From: Saprolegnia diclina VS20 | Lineage: Eukaryota > Oomycota > Saprolegniomycetes > Saprolegniales > Saprolegniaceae | Direction: 5' to 3' | Assembly (NCBI RefSeq): GCF_000281045.1 | Contig: NW_008246095.1 | Coordinates: forward strand, 547,990-611,989 | Length of the DNA: 64,000 nucleotides | Part shown: positions 37,432 to 50,172 of the stretch, piece after piece | Layout: each line of letters starts with the position of its first letter | Numbering within the stretch: the first letter of the stretch is position 1 | Program-made: the position numbers and the translations under genes | The notes under the pieces: generated by a model | The model's input: the letters and a program-made list of their open reading frames with translations, nothing else | Told to the model about the DNA's origin: nothing | Databases searched by the model: none

Positions 37432-38587
37432 TTAGGCCAGTGTGGTTGAGAAAGAGTCGGCTAAGAAGCACATTGCGTGCATGCAACGCCATTATTCTGG
37501 TTCCAACGCGACTGAGAATCGCAGACACGTCCACAACGCCATCTGGGACACATTCTGGTGCACCTGCATGAAGGCACCGGTATTGATTCTCCTTGGAAGT
37601 TGAGGCGATCGCGGGCGGTGGAATCGCAGTGGCATGGTCAATAAGTTCTGGGTCGCGCCCTGTGCTGGCAGGATGCCACGAGTTGGCACGCCGGATACGC
37701 CATGCCGGGTTTGGTCGTTGGGTATCCGGAATGCGCCAGCGGCTGTTTTTTAAATTCGTGACAAAACACAGTATTTTGTATGGCCTTGGCGCCTTCGGGA
37801 ATAAAAACACACGGCCACTGCGTATGCGGACGATTTTATCCGGAGGCTTCAACCCCCCAGTTCAAGCCGTTGTTGGCAATCTTATTCATGGCCCCCCACC
37901 CCGTGCTTGGGACTTGTCTTCAACCTCGTCCAGCTGTCGCCAAATGACCGTCTTCTTCGTCGTCTTGCCTCGCGGACCCAGGTCCCTCTTGGTCGAACGA
38001 TAATGCAGGAAGGGCGATGAGGATGCCAGGATGATTCTCCTCCATCGCCGTGTCCTTGCCGCTGTACACGGTAGGGTGGTGTCGATACCGAGGCAATGCG
38101 CATCTCCTTCCGGGACATGGGTTGAAGCGCGACAATAATCCCGTCGCTTCAAAGACGCGACTCGCTCGATCACCTTCTTTGGGCAATCGAGTCAGTTGCG
38201 AGCATACCGTAGGTCACGTGGCCTGGGTGGTTTTCATGGGTCCCTCTGTTCTTTCTTTTTGATGGGGCCCAACCCCACGCGGCAAATAAACGCCTTACAA
38301 ATGCGCTGTCATTTTTATCGGATTTGGCGCGCGCACGATCCCAGACTCGGCTGGAGTGGGACAGGTCGGGAGCCAGAAAGGGACGGGGGACATGGGATTT
38401 GCGGCCAATCAGAGGAGAAGTCGCGTCACCGCGCCGAATCCGCGGCCAATCCGATCGCGCCAAGCAGGATGGGGACCGCAAACCTGTGGTGCGCATGTTG
38501 GAGCGGCCCAAAATTCGAAGAATTTTATTTAAATAAAATAATACACTGGATTGGGTCGGTGCAATATTCAAAGAAGTGCGACGACGC
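37432..38587. other. Intergenic, no gene seen
   Basis: 1.16 kb between two plus-strand genes. TATCCGGA motifs occur at 37723 and 37837. Composition is less GC-rich than the coding regions; no open frame resembles a protein family and no RNA gene was recognised. Confidence 0.55.
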
Positions 38588-40030
38588 ATGATGAGCAGCA
38601 GCGCGATGCGGAGCATGGAGGCGATCGACGTCCTTCCGCTCCATGAAGCCGACCTGGAGGAAGACGATATGCTCGAGGACGACGACGACGACGACATGAT
38701 GCTGGACGACGACGATGGCGGCTGGAGCGTCGACCTCGACGACCTCGACGACAACGTCGGCAGCCCGACGAGCGTCGCGACGCCTGATGCGTATGGCTAC
38801 GAAGAGCTGCTCTCGCGCGTCAACCTCTCGAGCGAGGAAGATGCGCCGTTCACGTTTCTGCTGCCAACGAGCTGCGACGACCTCATGGTGATCGACGAAG
38901 GCCGAAGCGCGCCGCCGAGCGAGTGCGGCAGCGAAGCCATTGGCGGCGACGAAACCGACTCGGACGACGTCGTGTGCTGGGGCGAGAACGAAGCCGACGA
39001 GAAGGAGTACTACGACATTGACCACCGTGTGATTTGCGACAAGCAAAACCGGTTTTGGTCGCCGGCCGACGAGACGAACAGTGGCGCGAGCAGCCCGAGC
39101 AGCGACGCCAAGCAGATGACGTCGGTAGTCGCGCCGCTGCCATCGACCAACGTGACCGAGTCGGGACGCATGGTCAACCATATTTTGGCGTCATGCCTCA
39201 AGAAGCGCAAGCTCCACGTGCCGTACAAGCACCAAGTGAAGCTCGTGAATTTCACACCGGTCGTCGCCAAGACGACGCCGACGCTCCTCTCGTCGACCAA
39301 GGCGATTATGGCGCCCGTCCGGACGCTGCCGTCGACAATTGCCGTCTCGTCGTCGTCCTCTTCGTATAGTGCAAGCAAAGCGCCGGACGAAGCGACCAAG
39401 TCGATCGAAACGACGGTGCCGTTGGCGCCCTTCATTGCGCTGCCGTCCAACCACACGCCGACGATGAGCAAGGCGCGGGACAAGGACCACGTCATGCAGC
39501 CGAACGAAGACCGCAAGAAGATGGAGACCTCGACGCCCAAGAAGCTGCCGACGCTCGGTGTCAATGCGCCGCTTTTGACCAAGAAGGTGGCCCAAGAGAA
39601 ACGCAAGCACGCAATGATGAGCATGGCGAGCGGCCTCACACTGGCGTCGTTCAAGGTGACACCGATGCCACTGCCGTCGTCGGCCGACGACTCGGACATC
39701 GACACGTTGGCGGTTGACCAAGAGCTACTGGACCTTTGCAACTCGATCACGGACACGACGTCGCGCATCTTGCGGCCAAAAGTCGACTTTATGCCGCTGC
39801 CGGACCTCGGCTGCATGCCCCAGGACCTACGCGACCTCAAGCTCAAGATTGAGGCCACCGAAGTCAAAGTCGAGGGCACCAAGCACCGGCACCGCAAGGG
39901 CGGGCCGTGTCCGCGCTGTCAAGTGCAAAATCAGCTCCGCGCGGCCAAGCGAGGTAAGCTCTTGGACCTCTCTACCTTTCTGCTCATGCTATATCTAGCG
40001 CTCCTCTGCCGCATGAAACGCTACAAGTAA
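38588..40030 (+). CDS. Unknown acidic, low-complexity protein with C-terminal cysteine/basic motif
   Basis: Two exons (38588-39953, 39999-40030) give 465 residues; a second ATG follows at once. The N-terminal 60 residues carry an Asp/Glu run (LEEDDMLEDDDDDDMMLDDD). The middle is Ser/Thr/Pro/Lys-rich and looks disordered, with a basic patch (CLKKRKLHVPYKHQVKLVNF). The C-terminus has GGPCPRCQVQNQLRAAKR, a CxxC that could bind a metal or nucleic acid. The intron has the consensus GTAAGC…CTAG, is 45 nt long and stop-free; splicing gives the end LLCRMKRYK. I do not recognise a family. Composition suggests a nuclear regulatory protein, which is only inference. Convergent with NOP16, 39 bp apart. 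Confidence 0.7.
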   Translation: MMSSSAMRSMEAIDVLPLHEADLEEDDMLEDDDDDDMMLDDDDGGWSVDLDDLDDNVGSPTSVATPDAYGYEELLSRVNLSSEEDAPFTFLLPTSCDDLMVIDEGRSAPPSECGSEAIGGDETDSDDVVCWGENEADEKEYYDIDHRVICDKQNRFWSPADETNSGASSPSSDAKQMTSVVAPLPSTNVTESGRMVNHILASCLKKRKLHVPYKHQVKLVNFTPVVAKTTPTLLSSTKAIMAPVRTLPSTIAVSSSSSSYSASKAPDEATKSIETTVPLAPFIALPSNHTPTMSKARDKDHVMQPNEDRKKMETSTPKKLPTLGVNAPLLTKKVAQEKRKHAMMSMASGLTLASFKVTPMPLPSSADDSDIDTLAVDQELLDLCNSITDTTSRILRPKVDFMPLPDLGCMPQDLRDLKLKIEATEVKVEGTKHRHRKGGPCPRCQVQNQLRAAKRGKLLDLSTFLLMLYLALLCRMKRYK

Positions 40031-40069: not shown

Positions 40070-40537
40070 CTACTTGATGATCTTGGCATCGACGAGCTTG
40101 AGGCGCGCGCACCGCCGCTTGAGCTTGGACTCGGTCCACTGCTCGTTGTTGATCTTGATGTCGCGGGCCATTGCGGCGTAGTCGTCGCCAAACTTGGCGA
40201 GGAGTGGGCGCAAGTAGGCAACCTCCATCTCCGACATGTGGTTCTCGGCCTTCTTGTGATTGCGCTCGTCGTTGAGGTTGAGGATGTCCGAGTCGGGCAC
40301 ATCAAAGAGCTCTTCCGGGTCGATGATCTCTTCCGTGCACGCCCGGATCTGCGCAATCGCGTTCGGGTCGCGGTTGAGCCCAATCTTTTCGTAGTTTTGC
40401 TTGGTCGTGAGCTTGTGGTCCCAGAGCTTCTTGATCTCGCCGTCGCCGACAAACTTGGTCTTGTACTTGCGGATCGGCTTGGACTTGCGCGAGACCTTGA
40501 CCTTGCCCTTGCCCGGGCGATTACGCGCGTGCACCAT
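40070..40537 (-). CDS. NOP16: Nucleolar protein 16 (60S ribosome biogenesis)
   Basis: A single exon encodes 155 residues from ATG 40537 (MVHARNRPGKGKVKVSRKSK). The NOP16 layout is present: basic N-terminus, IKKLWDHKLTTKQNYEKIGL followed by NRDPN (family: AWD…Q N…GL…DPN), an acidic middle, and MSEMEVAYLRPLLAKFGDDY with AAMARDIKIN near the end (family: YV..M…HGEDYKAMARD..N). NOP16 is a nucleolar factor of large-subunit pre-ribosomes. Length is close to that of the family. Confidence 0.87.
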   Translation of the reverse strand: MVHARNRPGKGKVKVSRKSKPIRKYKTKFVGDGEIKKLWDHKLTTKQNYEKIGLNRDPNAIAQIRACTEEIIDPEELFDVPDSDILNLNDERNHKKAENHMSEMEVAYLRPLLAKFGDDYAAMARDIKINNEQWTESKLKRRCARLKLVDAKIIK

Positions 40538-41054
40538 CTTTCGACTTGTGGCAACTCGGAGCGAGCACGAAAGCCGATTGGCCCTGATCCAACCAAACGC
40601 AACCGGATATAAGTCCGGATACAAGACCTGTCCGGAGAACGTGTTGATTTGCATCACACGCGCCTCCATCTTCATCATGGCCATTCGAGCAATGGTTCTC
40701 CCGGTGCTAATTTGTTACGGTTGGCTGCACACGATGCGAGTCTTATGTAGCTACAGCGGAAAGTTATAGCAGAAAATAGCGACGGCTGATGTAGGAGAGA
40801 TTTGTTGCCCTTTGTCAAGGGATCCCAAGTTCGTTGTCGAGGCCGACAACCGGCGAAGAAAGCTGTCTCTGGCGTTGATGGACGCAGGTATTAGGCCAGC
40901 TACGGACGCTTCTCAAGTGACGAGCTTGCGTCGTTGGTCTTATCGACTGAAGCGTTATGCTCGACAGGTCCTGAGTTCGAGATGATCGAAAGGAAGCACC
41001 CAGAAAGGTTTGTATAAAATGAAATGTCAAGAGCAACGCAGCGACGTGGCGACC
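40538..41054. promoter_or_regulatory. NOP16 upstream region with TATCCGGA motifs
   Basis: Minus-strand TATCCGG at 40603-40609 and TATCCGGA at 40614-40621 lie 66-84 bp upstream of the NOP16 ATG, with a further TCCGGA near 40631. The rest up to the helicase-fusion stop codon shows no gene. Confidence 0.4.
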
Positions 41055-44000
41055 CTAATCCTCGTCGAGCATGATTTGCGGAAACGGCTCAAAGTACGCG
41101 GCCTCGAGCTCCATTTGGACCCAGTCCCATTTCTTGCCCTTGGTCTTGGTCGTCGAAAAGAGCGCGTCCATCTCGGGGCCACTGAGGCTGGTCGATGGCT
41201 CGTTCATTGATCGCAGCGGCTTGGTGAGGCCGTGCGAGAGGTCCTTCCGGATCCAGTTGACGGTCGCCATGACCGATCGAATAGGGAGCGCGACACCTTC
41301 GGGCAGCAAGTAGTTGTGACCGTCGACCTTGAGCGCTACGCAAAGAAGCCCCGTCTTGTCCATAAGGAACCACACGCTGCGCTTTGCCGAGAGCAGCATC
41401 ACTAACCATAGCATGAGAAGGTTTTTCAGCCATTGAACGTACGAATCGCAAGGTAACTGTCGACCGCCGGCGGCAGGAGCGTGCACTTGCCGCCGAGCAT
41501 CATCGATCCATCGCCCGTCAAGAGCTGCTCGGAAAAGATACCGTGCACCGTGTTGTCCTTGTTGAGGTACTTGAAGGGGAGGCCCATCGGGTTGCGCCCC
41601 GAGCAGTTGACCTTGATGCCCGACAGGAGCTGCTTCCACGCAATCAAACTGCAGCCGACGACTTGGCGCTGGGGCATGCGAAGGCGGATCGAGTCAAACG
41701 ACCCGGGACTTGGCTCCCAGAGCGGCAGAGTCGACACGTCGATCGGGAACGATCGGTCGCGCATAAAGTGCAGCAGCGAGAGGCCAAACGGAAGCCCGTT
41801 AAAGGGGTTGGCGTCTTCTTCGTCATTGTTGGTCGTCGTCGCAAAGAGGATGGTGAGGCTCTTCGCATCGACCTTGAGCGAATGAATCTCGCTCGCCGCG
41901 TCGCGGGTGATGGGCCCCAGCGTGCGCAGCAGGTCATCCCGAGGGACACCTTTGGCCCACTTGCTCTCTTCGTCGATCGTGAGCGTGGCGTGGACCGGGC
42001 CCGTCTTGGGCTTGGGCGATCCCTTCTTGGCCTTCGCACCCGGGGTCGGCAAGCTCCCGGCCACCAGGCTGTCCGTGTAGTTGAGCAGGAGCACGAGACG
42101 CAGCATGGGCACGGGCGTGTGCTGGTGCTTCCAGTCGGGGCAAAACCCCTTGTTGCAAAACTTCTCGAGCGCCATGACCGAGCGCAACACCGAGGGTTGC
42201 AGCGCGCGCGAGTGGGCAAAGTCCTGGCGCTTGGCAAGCCGCACAAAGCGGAGGCACACGTCGCCCATGAGCACACACATCGTCTGGAAGCGGCGTGTCG
42301 CAATCGCGTGCTTGCGCAACAAATGCTGCACCGCGCTTTTCGACTTCAGCGCCAGGCAGCGCGTGACGAGGCGCCACATAGCGAGCGGCTCGCTCCACAG
42401 CGGCTGGTCGTCGTCTTCCTCCTTCTGCAGCGAGAGTTTGCCCTACAGTGCACATATATGTCACCATCGTATTGGAGCACGCAAGAAGAGTCTACCTCGA
42501 GTGCATGCTTCATCTCGGCCATGTACTTGCCCGCGCTCGTAATGTGAAAGCGGGACGGCGCTACGTGCAGATCGGGCGACGCGAGGATGCTGGCGAGAAT
42601 GATCACATCGACGAGGCCGTGCTGCATGCCGAGGTCGTAGGCGCTGAGGCCGTACATGAGGAGGCGGCAGAGACGCACGTCGAGCGGAAAGTTGGTGCAA
42701 AAGACGCCAAAGGGCGTGATGGCGTTCGTGGTCGTCTCGTTGGCTTCCGTGACGGCCGCCATGTCGTGCAGCACCTTGTAGGCGCCGGTAATGTTGTTGA
42801 GGTTCGGGACGCTCATCGCATTCTTGAGGAGGTTCGTCGGTGTGTCAATGTGGGCGAGCTGCGCTTTGAGCTGGAGCACAATCTTGTCGAGCGGCTTCCG
42901 GAGCAGCTCGGGCGTCGTGTACGCAGCCATGCACTCGTTCATAAACGACTTTGTGAACAAGTGGTACGCCGTACCCGGGCGAATGCGGCCCGCGCGGCCT
43001 ACACACAGAAAGGGTCATGAGCTTCGTTGCAACGTAAGAGGAGACGGACCCGAGCGCTGCTTGACCGACGCCTGCGAGCACCACGAGCGGACAAGGACTT
43101 CCATGTGGCCCGTCGTCGGCATCATGATCTGCTTCTCCATGCCAGAGTTGATAATGTGCGTCACGTCCGGGATCGTCACACTGCTCTCGGCAATGTTGGT
43201 CGAGAGGATGATCTTGACCTTGCCGTCCACCGGCTACACACATCGCTTAGCAATTGCAGTGATACCGTCCGTGGACGTACGGCAAAGGCCTTCTCTTGGT
43301 CCTCAATGTCGAGCTCGCTGTGCAGCACAAACAGCTGGATATCGCGCATCTTCTCAAGCTGCTCGTGGACATACTGAATGTCCGAGATGCCCGGGAGGAA
43401 GATGAGAATGCACGACGGGTCGACGACCGTCTTGGTGATGTGGAGCGCGAGGGCGACGCACAGATCGAGCTGGATCGGGACGACCTGCGTGATCTTCTTG
43501 CCCATGATTTCAGGGTCCAAGTCGGTCTTCTTCCAGCCCGCGAGCTGCGTCGTGAGCTTCTTGGCCAGCGTAGCAATCTCGGCGATGCCAGGAATGTGCT
43601 TGTGGACCTCGTCCATGTAAATGGCCGTCACATCGTAGAGCGCCGAGCCGACAAACAGCGGCTTCTTCCACGCAAGCGGCGAGGGAAGGCCTTCCTTGAA
43701 GTACTTAAAGAAGATGGCCGCGTCCATGGTGGCCGACATGATAATGAGCTTGAGGTTGGGCCAGAGGTGCCAGTTGGTCTTGATCATGAGCAAAAGGAGG
43801 TCCATGTCCATGCTGCGCTCGTGCGCTTCGTCGAGCACGAGGTGCGTCACTTGCGCAATCGATTCGGGCGAGTGGATGATGCGCTCGAGCATGTAGCCCG
43901 TCGTCGCGTACGTGATGCGCGTCGCCTTCGAGTCGCGCTGGAACTGTCCGACGCGGTACCCGATCGTGTTGCCGACGTCTTCGCCGCGCATCTTGGCGAC

Positions 44001-46438
44001 CGTCGATGCCAGCGTAATCGCGGCCACACGCCGGGGCTGCGTAATGTACATGTTGACGGTCGGGTCTTCGTCCAAGATAAACTGCGGCACCGACGTGCTC
44101 TTGCCGCAGCCCGTCTCGCCTTGGATGATCGTCAGCGGGTTCTTGGCCACATTGTTGAGAAGTTCGTCCTTATGCGCAAACACGGGCAGTGTGAAAATGA
44201 GCTTTTCAATGTGCACCGGCTCGCGTGGCGGCAGCGGCGCGCGGGGCTGAAGCGGCAACGGCGGTGGCATCGGCGGGTTCAACTGCAGCTGCTCGAGCTG
44301 CGTCGTGAGCGACGCAGTGGATGGCGCAGTAGAGCTTGTCGTCTTGGGGCGGCGAAGGCGCTTGGCCAGCACCGACGGCAATAGCGCGCCTTTCGGAGCA
44401 AGCAGCGGCAGCGGCGGCGGCTGGTACTCTTCAAAGAGCGGCGCCAGCATCCAGTATGACCACGAACAGAGCTGGAGCGAAGTGGCGTCGTCCCCGAAAA
44501 AGTGTCGCGCGACCGCGTTCACGTGGTTCTTCGAGTAGACTTGGGGCGTCACCAGCGACAGGATTGTCGAAAAGACACCAGCCGAGAAGAAGGCGTGTTC
44601 GTTGAGGCGCGGCGACAAGCCAAAGATCTTGAGGTGATGCAGCTGCCAGTCGATCCAGTAGCGGAAGACGACCGAGGCGTCCATCTCGGCCGCATTCGCA
44701 ACGGTTGCGAGCGGCACAATCGTCGTGTGCTTCTGCATCGTCTTGCACACGGCAGCCGTCAAGAGCAGCGGCAGCACGTACGCGTGGAGGCGCTCGTGGA
44801 GCGTCGGCACGAGCAGCGACATTGCATTGGCCACCACTTGGAGCTCGTAGTGGGTCTTGGCGCCCTTCCAAGCCTGGAGGCGCGACTGGAGCGCCGGGTG
44901 TTGGGCCAGAAGAAACACCACGTTGCGCTGAAACGCAGCCGCCCGCGCCTCTTTCCCAACGGCCAAGAGCCGGTGGATCGGGATCGGGGCTTTGCCGTCG
45001 CTGCTACGCGGCGTCATGCTGCGCGTGCTGCCGTCGGCAAGGATCTCGACAACCGGTTGGGTTTGTCCGAGCGCGTGGTACACAAGGCAGTTGGCCTCGA
45101 TTGCGATCGGGTGCGACTCGAGGGCGGCAAACCGCGCGCTCAAATGGCGCTCTTGGCAGTAGAGCACGTCGAGGGCAAAGTTCGGGTACGATTGCTTGTC
45201 GAGGAGCTTGATGGCCTTCTTCCACTCGGCGGGCGGGAGGCACGACAGCCGGTTTGCAGTCGGGTACCGCGACAGGAACTGGTCGTCGGCGCCGTAAAAG
45301 CTGTAGATCGCATAGACGTAGCTGAGTGCGGACGCGTTGCTCCTCAGAAACAGCTGAAACGACGGGTCGTCCAGCCAGTTGGTCTCGCCAAATTGGCTCC
45401 CAAGCCACTCGACGCTGGCCTGCACGCCAAGGTGCCCGTTTGCACGGCGGAGCGACGGCAAGTTGAGAAGCGACGCAAAGTCGAAATGGCGCTCGAGGTA
45501 CGGGGTAAAGTCGTTGCCGCATGCGAGCGCGACCTCGATGAGCTTGGTGGGCGCGACGCCGAGGCAGTCGGCTACCTTTGTCGCGCGGTAGACAAAGGCT
45601 GTCACGGTCTCGTCCTCCCTAGGAGTCGTACAGTCAGCATCATGCGATGCGCAGAGAGGAGCGTACTTGAAGATGATATTCGGGAAGGGAATGTACGAGA
45701 CGTTTTGCATGAGGAGGTAGTCCGAGTCTTGGGAGAGCACGGCAAAGGCGAGGCCGTCCCGCACCATCTTGCCGAGGGCTTCGTCGGCCTCGACGCTCGT
45801 CGTAATTAGCGAGCAGCCCGCATGTTGAATGCAACGCACCTATTGCAGCATGGCATCAACTCTCATGTACGAATCCACGAAGGAAGGACGCTACCACAGT
45901 GGCACGGGCAAGGGGAAACACAGCGTGGGCTTCGACGGCGATCTTGGCGGCGGCCGAGCTCTCGTCGACGCGGATCGTCGTCGGGTCCACCTCGGCATTG
46001 GTCTCGGGCACCTCGGGCGCCGGCGCAAAGATACCGTCGCGAACGATCGCGCTCTTCTCGGCGCGCTCGTCCGCACGCTTCTCGTGGGTCACGTCCTTGA
46101 TCGAGTTCAAGCGGCCGGGCGGGTCGCGTACAAACTTGAGGCGGATCTTGGCGCGGAAGAACTTCTTCATCCAGTCCTGGACCCAGAGGTATAGCGCGCG
46201 CTGGTCGCCTATCGCAAGATGCACGTCGTTGGCCTCGTCATGAAGTGGGCAAGCGATTACCGCCGAGGAGCACCCAGCTCGCATCAAAGGGCGCAAACTG
46301 CTTGGAGACTTGCTCGCACGCGTAGTGCAGGAACGAGTCGAGGTCGACGGCCAGCGTCTGCCCACTTAGGTCCACGTCGGCGTCGCCGCAGTCGGCTTGG
46401 TTGGCGTGGCAGTACGACGTCAGGCCTCGGATGCCCAT
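41055..46438 (-). CDS. PIN/FEN-like nuclease domain fused to a DExH-box RNA helicase
   Basis: Seven exons join to 1,694 residues (introns 46209-46260, 45840-45894, 43234-43280, 42999-43049, 42443-42495, 41402-41442). The N-terminus MGIRGLTSYCHAN is that of Asteroid-type XPG/FEN-like PIN proteins, and the acidic active-site positions look kept: LAVDLDSF, VEADEA (~180), SQDSDYLL (~202), ACGNDF (~272). A helical middle follows. The DExH core begins near 725: GETGCGKSTSVPQF (~737), TQPRRVAAIT, LVLDEAHERSMDMD (~831), IIMSATMD, LSTNIAESSVTIP, and VKQRSGRAGRI. HA2 and OB-type domains (FPLDVRLCRLLMYGLSAYDL) and a long C-terminal tail follow. The helicase half resembles the DHX29/36/57/YTHDC2 group. 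A role in RNA decay, processing or quality control is inferred. Confidence 0.85.
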
Positions 46439-47065: not shown

Positions 47066-50000
47066 TTACCGGTCGTATCGCTGGTTGGGGTACGAGGAAG
47101 ACGGCGCCTTGTCATATGTGCCGCGCTGCGCGTGCATGTTGCGCAGGCCGGCCTTGAGCGCATCCATGTTGGGCGCCTGCGGGCCGAAGCCCGAGCCGGC
47201 GACGCCACCTTGCTGCTGTGCGTCATTCGAATACGAGGCACCGCCTTGGTAGTCACGGCCGCCCTGGTAGCCGCCATGACCACCTTGGTAACCACCGCCA
47301 CCACCTTGGTAGCCACCGCCTTGATAGCCACCGCGACCGCCGCCTTGATAGCCACCACGGCCGCCACTACCACCTTGGTAGCTGTTGCCGCCCTGGTAGC
47401 CGCCGCGACCGCCCTGGTAGCCGCCACGACCGCCCTGGTAGCCGCCACGACCGCCCTGGTAGCCACCGCGCCCACCCGACGGCGCTTGATGCCGAAAGCC
47501 CGACGTCGTCGGCGGACCCTGCTGGTCGTTGTTGCTGTTGGGGACGTAGAGAAAGTTGTTGTGGGTCGGGGTCCCCCACCCCTGCTGACCTTGCGTCGGC
47601 TGGAAGCGGTTGTGGTTGTTTTGGCCGCCGCCGCGCTGATGGTTGCGGACGCTAATGGCAGTTCGGGCGGCGCCGGCCATGTCGATGATCGAAATGTTGG
47701 CGTTGCCAAAGAAGGGCGCGCGCACATCGCGGTCTTCAGGCGTCACGAGCACCGGTTCGTCTTCGATCGCACCGGGCAGCAAGACCGAGAGATGGCGGTT
47801 CTTGGGCGGCGAGAGAAACTCAAAGCTGAGGCACTTGTTGTTGCGAATGTCGAGGAGCTCGATCTTGGCCTTCTCGGGGCTCGGTACGATGCAGCCTTCC
47901 GGAAAGAAGCTCGGCTCGTGGTACGCCATACTGCCCGCCATCTCAAACGTCGCCGGCACGAGCGCCACGGGCGAGTTCGTTGGCGTCGGCAGCGGCTGGT
48001 TGGCGTTCGCATGGAAGAAGATGAGCTCCTTCCCAAAGCGCTCGTTGCGCTTCTTCTCGGCGTTCGTGAGCTTGGCGTTCATCGGCGCCATCGCATCCAG
48101 AAGGCGCTTCTCGTCAATGAACGGCAGCAGCGCGATCCAAAGCCACGGCACAGGCTTCCCGTTCGGGTCGAGCGGGATCTCTTCCGGGTAAAAGTCCAAT
48201 ATCGGCGACTCGGGGTCCGTCATGAGCCACTGGTACGGCTTGGGGATCGCATGCTTCGAGTCGGCAGGGAAGACGCCCATGAGCTGCTCGAACGGGCAGA
48301 ACGGCTGACCAAGATCAAACTTGATCTCGTACCGGTCAATGTTTTTGAGATCCGAGGCGAACGGCGCGTAATGGAACGGGTAAAACCACGTCCACGACAC
48401 ACAGCCCGCGTAGTAGTAGCGCATGACCCAGCACAGGCCTTCAATGTACGCCTGGAAGACGCGCTCGCGACCGCCACCTAATCGCATTGTCCATACATCG
48501 TCTCGAACACAAGAGGACACGTACCGATTTCAATGTCGTTGGCCTTGAGCTTGTCTTCGTAGTAGCGGGTCTTCCAGCCCGGCTCGCCGAGGCGCACCGT
48601 GTCCTTGATTTCGTCGCGGTACTTGTCGAGCTTGGCTTGCTCCATTTGCTTGATACGCTCCTTCAGCGCTTGCTTGGGCTCGAGCTGTGTGTACACCTCG
48701 TTCGAGGGCGTGGCCACACCACGGCCGTCCTTGTGGCGCTTGACCGAGACTGCGTCACCGCGGGCCGCTTCGGCGGCGACTTGATCGCGCTTCTTGTACA
48801 TCTCTCGCCGCGCTTGGAACTCGACGTTGCGACGCTCCTTCTCGATGCGGCGCTGGAAGATGGTTTCTTCGACAGTGCCGACCTCGGCGAGGAGCACGTC
48901 AGCTCGGGACAGATCGATCTCACCGCCGGGGTTGGTGATGTAGCCGCCGAGCGACGGAAGCAGCTTGGCGTACACGAGCAGGAGGTAGTCGACGGCGCCG
49001 TCGCGAATGTCCATGCACGGCAAGTGCGGCAGGAAATCGTTGCCGACAAAGAAGCAGAGGAACACAAAGTCGTCAATGATGCGCTCGAAGTCGTACGGGA
49101 AGGGCAAGGTACCAGCGACGGGCTAGAGAGTGCGGAATGAGGACGAGAAGCAGTTCGGAATGAGCGACGTACCTCAAACTCAATGCGGAGGTACTCGCGC
49201 AGTGTGCTAATGTGAAGAAACTGGAACGGCTTCAAGTTGGATGCAAGCATGGCTGCGTCGTGCTCGCCGTACTCGCCGGCCTTGCGCTTCGCATTGGACG
49301 GATCGTTGCCCGCGAGACGCGCCTTGGCTTCAATGGCCTCGTACTTGGCCTTGCCGAAGAGGACTTCTTCGCGAAGGACCGAAAAATGCGCTTCGTGGGT
49401 CGCGAGCCCAAGCATGATGAGATCGGCATCGAGACCATGCAGCACGTGGCGCAGGTTCGGGTTGTAGTCGGGTTGGCAGCGCTGGTCGCGGATGTACATG
49501 ATGAGCTTGTGCTCACCCTCCCCGGGAACCCCGGCGTCGGAAAAGAGCACCTATCGAGAAGACGGATGAGAGATGGAGCATGCATCTATGAAGTACCTTG
49601 ATGTTCTTCCAGCCAGGGCTCGAGTTGATCCGATCGCGGACGTAGAAGCGCATGAACTTGGCGAGCTTGGCCATGAACTTGGTGCCGGGCGTAATGACGT
49701 TGGAATCCCACGGCGTCTGCTTGGCCGGCACCTTGTGGCCGATGAGCGCCATGTACTCGCGCGCTTCGGCGTCGACTTCCTCGCGCTGGCGCGCTTCTTG
49801 AGCAGATCGGAAACGACGCGAACGCTGCTGGTTCATCTTGGCACGCGGTGCAACGCCATCGATGGCCATGTAGAGGAGGCGGCGCGGGCGCACGCAGGCC
49901 ACGAGGCGGTCAACGTAGTCCATGAGGCGCATGAACATCTCTTCTTCGGTCTTGGGCTGCTCGCCCTCTTCCGGGTGCGCGCACGGGTGGATGATACCGT

Positions 50001-50172
50001 TCATGTCGATGTAGAGGTTGTCGAACTCGGTGCCATTGGGGTTCTCGGCCTCGATGTCGATGAGGCCGAAGCGGTCGCGGCCCTCGAGCCTCGTCGGCGG
50101 GTCCTCGGTGGCGTAGACCACCGTCTTGGGGTACTTCATGCTGATCCAGCGGTAGAACGCGGGGACACCCAT
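47066..50172 (-). CDS. XRN2: 5'-3' exoribonuclease 2 (RAT1/XRN2) with RGG-type tail
   Basis: Four exons (50172-49597, 49550-49173, 49122-48525, 48477-47066) give about 987 residues. The N-terminus MGVPAFYRWISMKYP and catalytic-core stretches (NLYIDMNGIIHPCAHPE, LLYMAIDGVAPRAKMNQQR, DAGVPGEGEHKLIMYIR, LDADLIMLGLATHE, FVGNDFLPHLP) are those of the XRN family. GWKTRYYEDKL and YIEGLCWVMRYYYAGCVSW follow. The nuclear RAT1/XRN2 type is favoured by length and overall layout. XRN2 degrades 5'-monophosphate RNA in the nucleus, drives transcription termination and processes rRNA. The C-terminal ~120 residues are a GGYQGG/RGG low-complexity region (47250-47480) typical of RNA-binding, phase-separating tails. 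Confidence 0.93.

Follow-up and report, generated by a model that had tools for sequence, protein, structure and literature searches.

A predicted FEN/XPG-type nuclease joined to a TDRD9/Spindle-E-related DEAH helicase in Saprolegnia diclina and other protists

Nucleases of the FEN/XPG type and helicases of the DEAH/RHA family are known as separate enzyme families. FEN1, EXO1 and GEN1 typically bind duplexes through an H2TH motif, and the PIN protein Asteroid is, to our knowledge, not itself joined to any helicase. DEAH/RHA helicases translocate 3'→5' and act mainly on RNA. The helicases TDRD9 and Spindle-E appear, in the portions of the literature consulted, as factors of the Piwi-interacting RNA (piRNA) system of animals. 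Mkt1 of fission yeast, linked to RNA interference, belongs to the same FEN-like PIN class and shares an RNA-linked biology; of the six residues of the active site it keeps only two, and silencing stayed intact when these were mutated (PMC7026591). Here we describe the gene SDRG_09070, contained in a window of 64,000 nucleotides from the oomycete Saprolegnia diclina VS20 (contig NW_008246095.1, positions 547,990 to 611,989), whose product is predicted to combine the two families in one chain with both active sites kept. The same combination was found in lineages as far apart as oomycetes, diatoms, a dinoflagellate and one prokinetoplastid, and it suggests an evolutionary connection with the piRNA helicases that can be put to the test.

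The gene and its predicted domains

The gene occupies 41055..46438 of the window on the minus strand, exactly where an original prediction made from the sequence had placed it, with an ATG at 46438 and a stop codon at 41057-41055. Removal by hand of seven GT..AG introns of 41-55 nt left eight exons (46438-46261, 46208-45895, 45839-45667, 45618-43281, 43233-43050, 42998-42496, 42442-41443 and 41401-41055), and the resulting product of 1678 amino acids (aa) was letter-for-letter identical to the annotated S. diclina VS20 protein, named 'hypothetical protein' in the database. As that annotation derives from the genome of the same strain, the match gives the gene model no independent support, which comes instead from the relatives. 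Conservation in S. parasitica (91% protein identity) and Aphanomyces (about 47% over the whole protein) argues that the gene is not a product of chance.

The fusion in one reading frame was borne out, as the spliced gene encodes a single protein with a FEN-type fold and a full DExH helicase. The single in-frame gene of the original prediction therefore stood, but its seven exons are actually eight, because a 48-nt intron at 45619..45666 had been taken as exon; the supposed 'continuous 2.56-kb exon 45839-43281' is in fact two exons divided by this intron. The intron 45894-45840 was placed correctly, and it is still true of exon 45618-43281 that the PIN end and the helicase start lie together in it. 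The 16 residues that the 48-nt intron would encode are missing from SDRG_09070 and its aligned relatives. The length of this intron is divisible by three and it contains no in-frame stop, so that it is open to read-through, and a transcript that retained it would encode a nuclease domain longer by 16 residues with the frame kept.

The FEN/XPG-type PIN nuclease domain (aa 1-340; 45264..46438, minus strand) was identified by Pfam XPG_I above its cut-off and by an AlphaFold model. The model, with a predicted local distance difference test score (pLDDT) of 90.8, gave the N-terminus a FEN-type nuclease fold, for which the matches listed by Foldseek and VIA include FEN1, EXO1, XPG, Rad2 and GEN1. 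All the nuclease motifs named earlier are present, namely VDLD (D32), EADEA (E181 and D183), DSD (D202 and D204) and GND (D258), and three residues absent from that list, D88, K97 and R104, complete a FEN1-type site. The fold and all seven acids are thus shared with FEN1, EXO1, XPG (Rad2) and GEN1, and the Lys and Arg are seven residues apart, as in FEN1. Among 55 aligned fusions, the acids and the Arg were identical in all 55 and K97 was kept in 53; this count excludes P0007-P0009, near-duplicates of P0006, as well as the incomplete or disrupted N-termini of P0026, P0031, P0035, P0040, P0047, P0051, P0053, P0058, P0059 and P0084. The predicted fold, the metal-binding acids and the Lys/Arg gateway all place the domain in the FEN/XPG (Rad2) superfamily. 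A dead nuclease of the Mkt1 kind was ruled out, since every catalytic residue is kept in the fusion, whereas most are gone in Mkt1.

The label 'Asteroid' given to this domain earlier was not established. Compared through the Pfam family alone, the window protein scored 17.7 bits against XPG_I_2, below the cut-off of 24.2, whereas the general XPG_I passed. XPG_I_2 exceeded its cut-off in one of six fusions scanned, the diatom P0073 (29.1 bits), and is also found in the precomputed domain lists of P0055, P0109 and P0131.

The nuclease is followed by a helical linker domain (aa 341-690; 44214..45263, minus strand), with confident model helices to about aa 620 and homologues in the non-diatom fusions. 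Between S. diclina and Aphanomyces the linker is 28-29% identical, compared with 61-65% for the helicase. The DEAH/RHA helicase core with its winged-helix and ratchet domains (aa 691-1235; 42428..44213, minus strand) was supported by Pfam DEAD and Helicase_C, fold matches and trees. The helicase motifs named in the original prediction are likewise all present: Walker A (GETGCGKS, 44120-44097), DEAH (43832-43821), SAT and QRSGRAGR, the last conforming to QRxGRxGR. Together with the winged helix, the ratchet and an OB fold, recognised from sequence, Pfam, model and fold matches, they make up the features of a DEAH/RHA helicase, while the Pfam HA2 and OB families had no match in the window protein. 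The helicase fold matched DHX8, Prp2, Prp43 and DHX36, DHX36 and DHX29 headed the Foldseek list, and VIA alignments to Prp43/DHX15 extended to about model residue 918. The C-terminal part contains a provisional RRM-like segment (aa about 1380-1467; 41732..41995, minus strand), modelled as beta-alpha-beta-beta-alpha-beta, and an OB-fold-like beta barrel of model strands (aa about 1481-1603; 41283..41692, minus strand), interrupted by intron 41442-41402. The counterpart of the RRM-like segment in other protist relatives matches Spindle-E in profile comparison, whereas the profile of the oomycetes does not. DHX36, DHX29 and DHX9 have the same overall DEAH/RHA architecture with an OB fold. No Pfam TUDOR match was found in the window protein among families listed up to E 1.

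Kinship of the helicase and spread of the fusion

The helicase half looks related to TDRD9/Spindle-E, grouping with them rather than with the sampled sequences of the DHX29/57 and YTHDC2 type. In a first tree of 69 helicase cores, one clade (support 100/98) united 22 fusions, 15 helicase-only sequences and 11 animal Spindle-E/TDRD9 sequences, nine of the latter so named and two without a name but with a Tudor domain. Outside it fell 13 sequences of YTHDC2/DHX29/57 type, three spliceosomal-like helicases of S. diclina and five bacterial HrpA sequences. DHX36, DHX9 and DHX30 were not among the tree sequences, which were drawn from the hits of the query, so that the outgroup sampling is biased. 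The TDRD9 grouping was found again (100/99) in a second tree of 62 sequences leaving out P0141, P0126, P0128, P0086, P0015, P0016 and P0137. In the first tree the animal sequences grouped with a single helicase-only sequence, P0086 (95/85), and they were sister to the clade holding the fusions (100/99 in the first tree, 100/100 in the second). Within this sister clade the fusions were scattered, including those of oomycetes, diatoms, the dinoflagellate P0132, P0065, P0068, P0074 and P0118, with helicase-only sequences interspersed, some of which may be incomplete gene models. A EukProt protein in the TDRD9-related clade, P0050 (2383 aa), has two DEAH helicase units per chain, the first of which falls in the clade.

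The stretch after the helicase core was compared by profiles. A profile of 12 protist sequences, both fusions and helicase-only, matched that of Spindle-E at 97.4% over 174 columns, which alone is unspecific, as Spindle-E also matched a DHX set at 98.0% and HrpA at 92.1%, presumably through the shared ratchet; the protist set reached 24.1% against DHX and 18.1% against HrpA. In the later part alone, the protist profile still matched Spindle-E at 89.5% over 84 columns, compared with at most 0.9% in four shuffled controls, 1.2% for protist against DHX, 0.4% for protist against HrpA and 4.6% for Spindle-E against DHX. The diatom profile matched Spindle-E weakly after the core (47.8%), and the oomycete profile matched the protist profile at 97.3%. 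The nuclease was absent from all 12 listed animal proteins that bear the name Spindle-E or TDRD9 (E 0.81 or worse). These animal proteins, many with Tudor (precomputed PF00567), therefore differ from SDRG_09070, which has a FEN-type nuclease and no Tudor match.

The nuclease-before-helicase order was present in 65 of the 127 N-termini scanned at E <1e-5 (weakest 1.3e-6, next best 0.81), including the 13 seeds of the nuclease profile; the scan leaves out P0018 and P0057, in which the helicase motif has under 30 residues ahead of it. As the relatives were the best 120 of 3845 hits, plus sequences from two further searches, this spread is a lower bound. The order, which it had been proposed to look for in stramenopiles, is common to oomycetes and diatoms, and it extends beyond them to a dinoflagellate, a prokinetoplastid and other sequences. 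The third search added P0131, P0132 and P0133, of which P0132 is from the dinoflagellate Effrenium voratum (on a 422 kb contig, with 14 member sequences). The label 'PhM_4' of P0118 agrees with that of the free-living prokinetoplastid PhM-4 (PMC7859406), and the identifier of P0068 is of a style similar to those of choanoflagellate transcriptomes. A scan of viral contigs in IMG/VR gave 90 pattern matches, with no relative among them by tblastn.

The oomycete nuclease profile matched the nucleases of eight other fusions at E 6e-42 to 9e-9. The best match to other FEN-family exons of S. diclina was far weaker, 1.5e-4, though these score low because they are exon fragments. The linker was also co-linear: 12 oomycete-type sequences matched P0065, P0068, P0118, P0132 and P0074 (hhalign 73.9%, E 2.8e-5, 210 columns), and matched P0065, P0068 and P0132 alone still better (88.4%, E 2.8e-6, 279 columns), with five shuffled controls at 0.1% or less. 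The nuclease and linker matches favour one old event over several, and we infer from these comparisons that the two enzymes were probably joined a single time, early in eukaryotic history, with repeated losses afterwards. The domains of fusion proteins are already listed in databases, where the architecture is visible. No description of it was found in the open-access literature searched, outside which most subscription papers fall, and searches by locus tag, one of whose terms was overly broad, gave nothing relevant among the matches listed.

A candidate mechanism and its alternatives

The explanation that we favour, and consider moderately probable, is that SDRG_09070 is a single-chain enzyme that would make its own substrate and then trim it. 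Its predicted parts are a FEN/XPG-type PIN nuclease, a helical linker and a DEAH helicase related to TDRD9/Spindle-E, which carries an OB fold and an inserted RRM-like segment. The helicase, loaded on a 3' overhang, would move 3'→5' and peel off the partner strand, beginning at the 5' terminus of the latter, so that the displaced strand would present a 5' flap or free 5' end. The FEN-like nuclease could thread this end through the Lys/Arg gateway and cut it; the helicase would thus produce the substrate that the fused nuclease trims. RNA is the probable substrate, given that the helicases to which this one is closest serve in RNA silencing. Both the nuclease and the unwinding activities are predicted, and conservation of both active sites across such distances suggests that both are needed. 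The pairing of a 3'→5' helicase with a 5'-flap nuclease yields a sharp biochemical prediction.

Several results weigh against this explanation or the history behind it. The TM-scores of Foldseek matches to FEN-family chains were modest (0.41-0.60 by target length). The H2TH pattern of FEN1, G[IVL]G...A after D258, was absent as a sequence pattern in all ten fusions checked; the duplex-binding mode of FEN1 may therefore be absent, and the flap idea may be wrong in detail. No Pfam XPG domain was found in the dinoflagellate P0132, and those of P0068, P0118 and P0074 were below threshold, so that the nuclease call in these four relies on catalytic residues and the oomycete profile (E 2e-15, 6e-21, 9e-9 and 2.7e-19, respectively). 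Pairwise scores did not separate TDRD9 (271 bits) from fungal DHX helicases (275 bits). The oomycete C-terminal profile had no match to Spindle-E (1.2% after the core, 0.1% in the later part), and since direct comparison detects nothing, the oomycete C-terminus is linked to Spindle-E through the other protist sequences. No homology was detected between the diatom and oomycete linkers (hhalign 0.1%), and hardly any between the diatom linker and the P0065/P0068/P0118/P0132/P0074 set (6.3%); the diatom linker may have been shortened or replaced after the fusion. Finally, a single helicase clade of all 22 fusions was rejected by the approximately unbiased test (p 7e-5), which requires either losses or several fusions.

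As for biological role, a housekeeping enzyme of RNA processing or decay, acting in rRNA maturation or surveillance near an XRN-type exonuclease, is possible but rather unlikely. The same-strand neighbours, an XRN-family exonuclease and Nop16, point to it, although adjacency in one genome is weak evidence. Ribosome assembly offers cases of a PIN endonuclease working in trans with a DEAH helicase, namely Nob1 with Prp43 and Utp24 with Dhr1, but the PIN domains of Nob1 and Utp24 are of a class distinct from FEN. The role in 'RNA decay or ribosome quality control' proposed originally has only family membership and gene adjacency as its basis and is not established.

We regard as unlikely a role in small-RNA silencing, in which an Argonaute-linked helicase-nuclease would free and trim guide precursors or sliced targets, one chain replacing TDRD9/Spindle-E and separate nucleases. 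The grouping of the helicase with TDRD9/Spindle-E agrees with it, as do two Argonaute/Piwi-domain loci in the S. diclina genome (G000:C10:1019082-1019954 and G000:C1:620252-621142), although the Argonaute link is putative, drawn from co-occurrence in the genome. In silkworm, the Spn-E ATPase is required for BmAgo3-dependent ping-pong piRNA production (PMC11094040). The missing Pfam Tudor match speaks against such a role, and the animal family is sister to the clade holding the fusions, not nested inside it. We give a rather low probability to the broader idea that an ancient eukaryotic nuclease-helicase fusion was the ancestor or the sister of TDRD9/Spindle-E, that many protists keep an intact single-chain RNA-silencing processor which unwinds and cuts RNA, and that in animals the helicase stayed while the nuclease disappeared and a Tudor domain was acquired. 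With protist relatives carrying a built-in nuclease, the origin and original biochemistry of the TDRD9/Spindle-E helicases become directly testable.

A repair enzyme for R-loops or DNA 5' flaps seems improbable. Among the solved structures listed, the best fold matches are to the DNA nucleases FEN1, EXO1, XPG, Rad2 and GEN1, and the FEN-type active site is complete, but the fusions checked lack the H2TH-type pattern, the helicase family is mainly RNA-directed, and a survey by Pfam family found other FEN-family loci in S. diclina (contigs C4, C10, C12 and C33). A merger of two adjacent genes in the gene model, for which only the generic risk of eukaryotic annotation speaks, is hardly credible and was set aside, because exon 45618-43281, 2338 nt without a stop and encoding aa 223-1001, runs from inside the nuclease through the entire linker and most of the helicase, and the same order recurs in 65/127 scanned relatives, some bearing transcript-style ids.

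Neighbouring genes and open frames

The fusion gene is flanked on its own strand by two genes. Upstream, as originally predicted, it adjoins an XRN-family 5'-3' exoribonuclease gene (47066..50172, minus strand), recognised by Pfam XRN_N and XRN_M across three open frames, and downstream lies the gene for the ribosome biogenesis protein Nop16 (40070..40714, minus strand; Pfam Nop16). A 497-codon open frame on the plus strand (38537-40030) encodes acidic runs, and Pfam gave nothing for it up to E 0.01. Another plus-strand open frame, of 449 codons at 44460-45809, lies antisense to the fusion gene and probably reflects nothing more than the codon bias of coding DNA rich in G+C.

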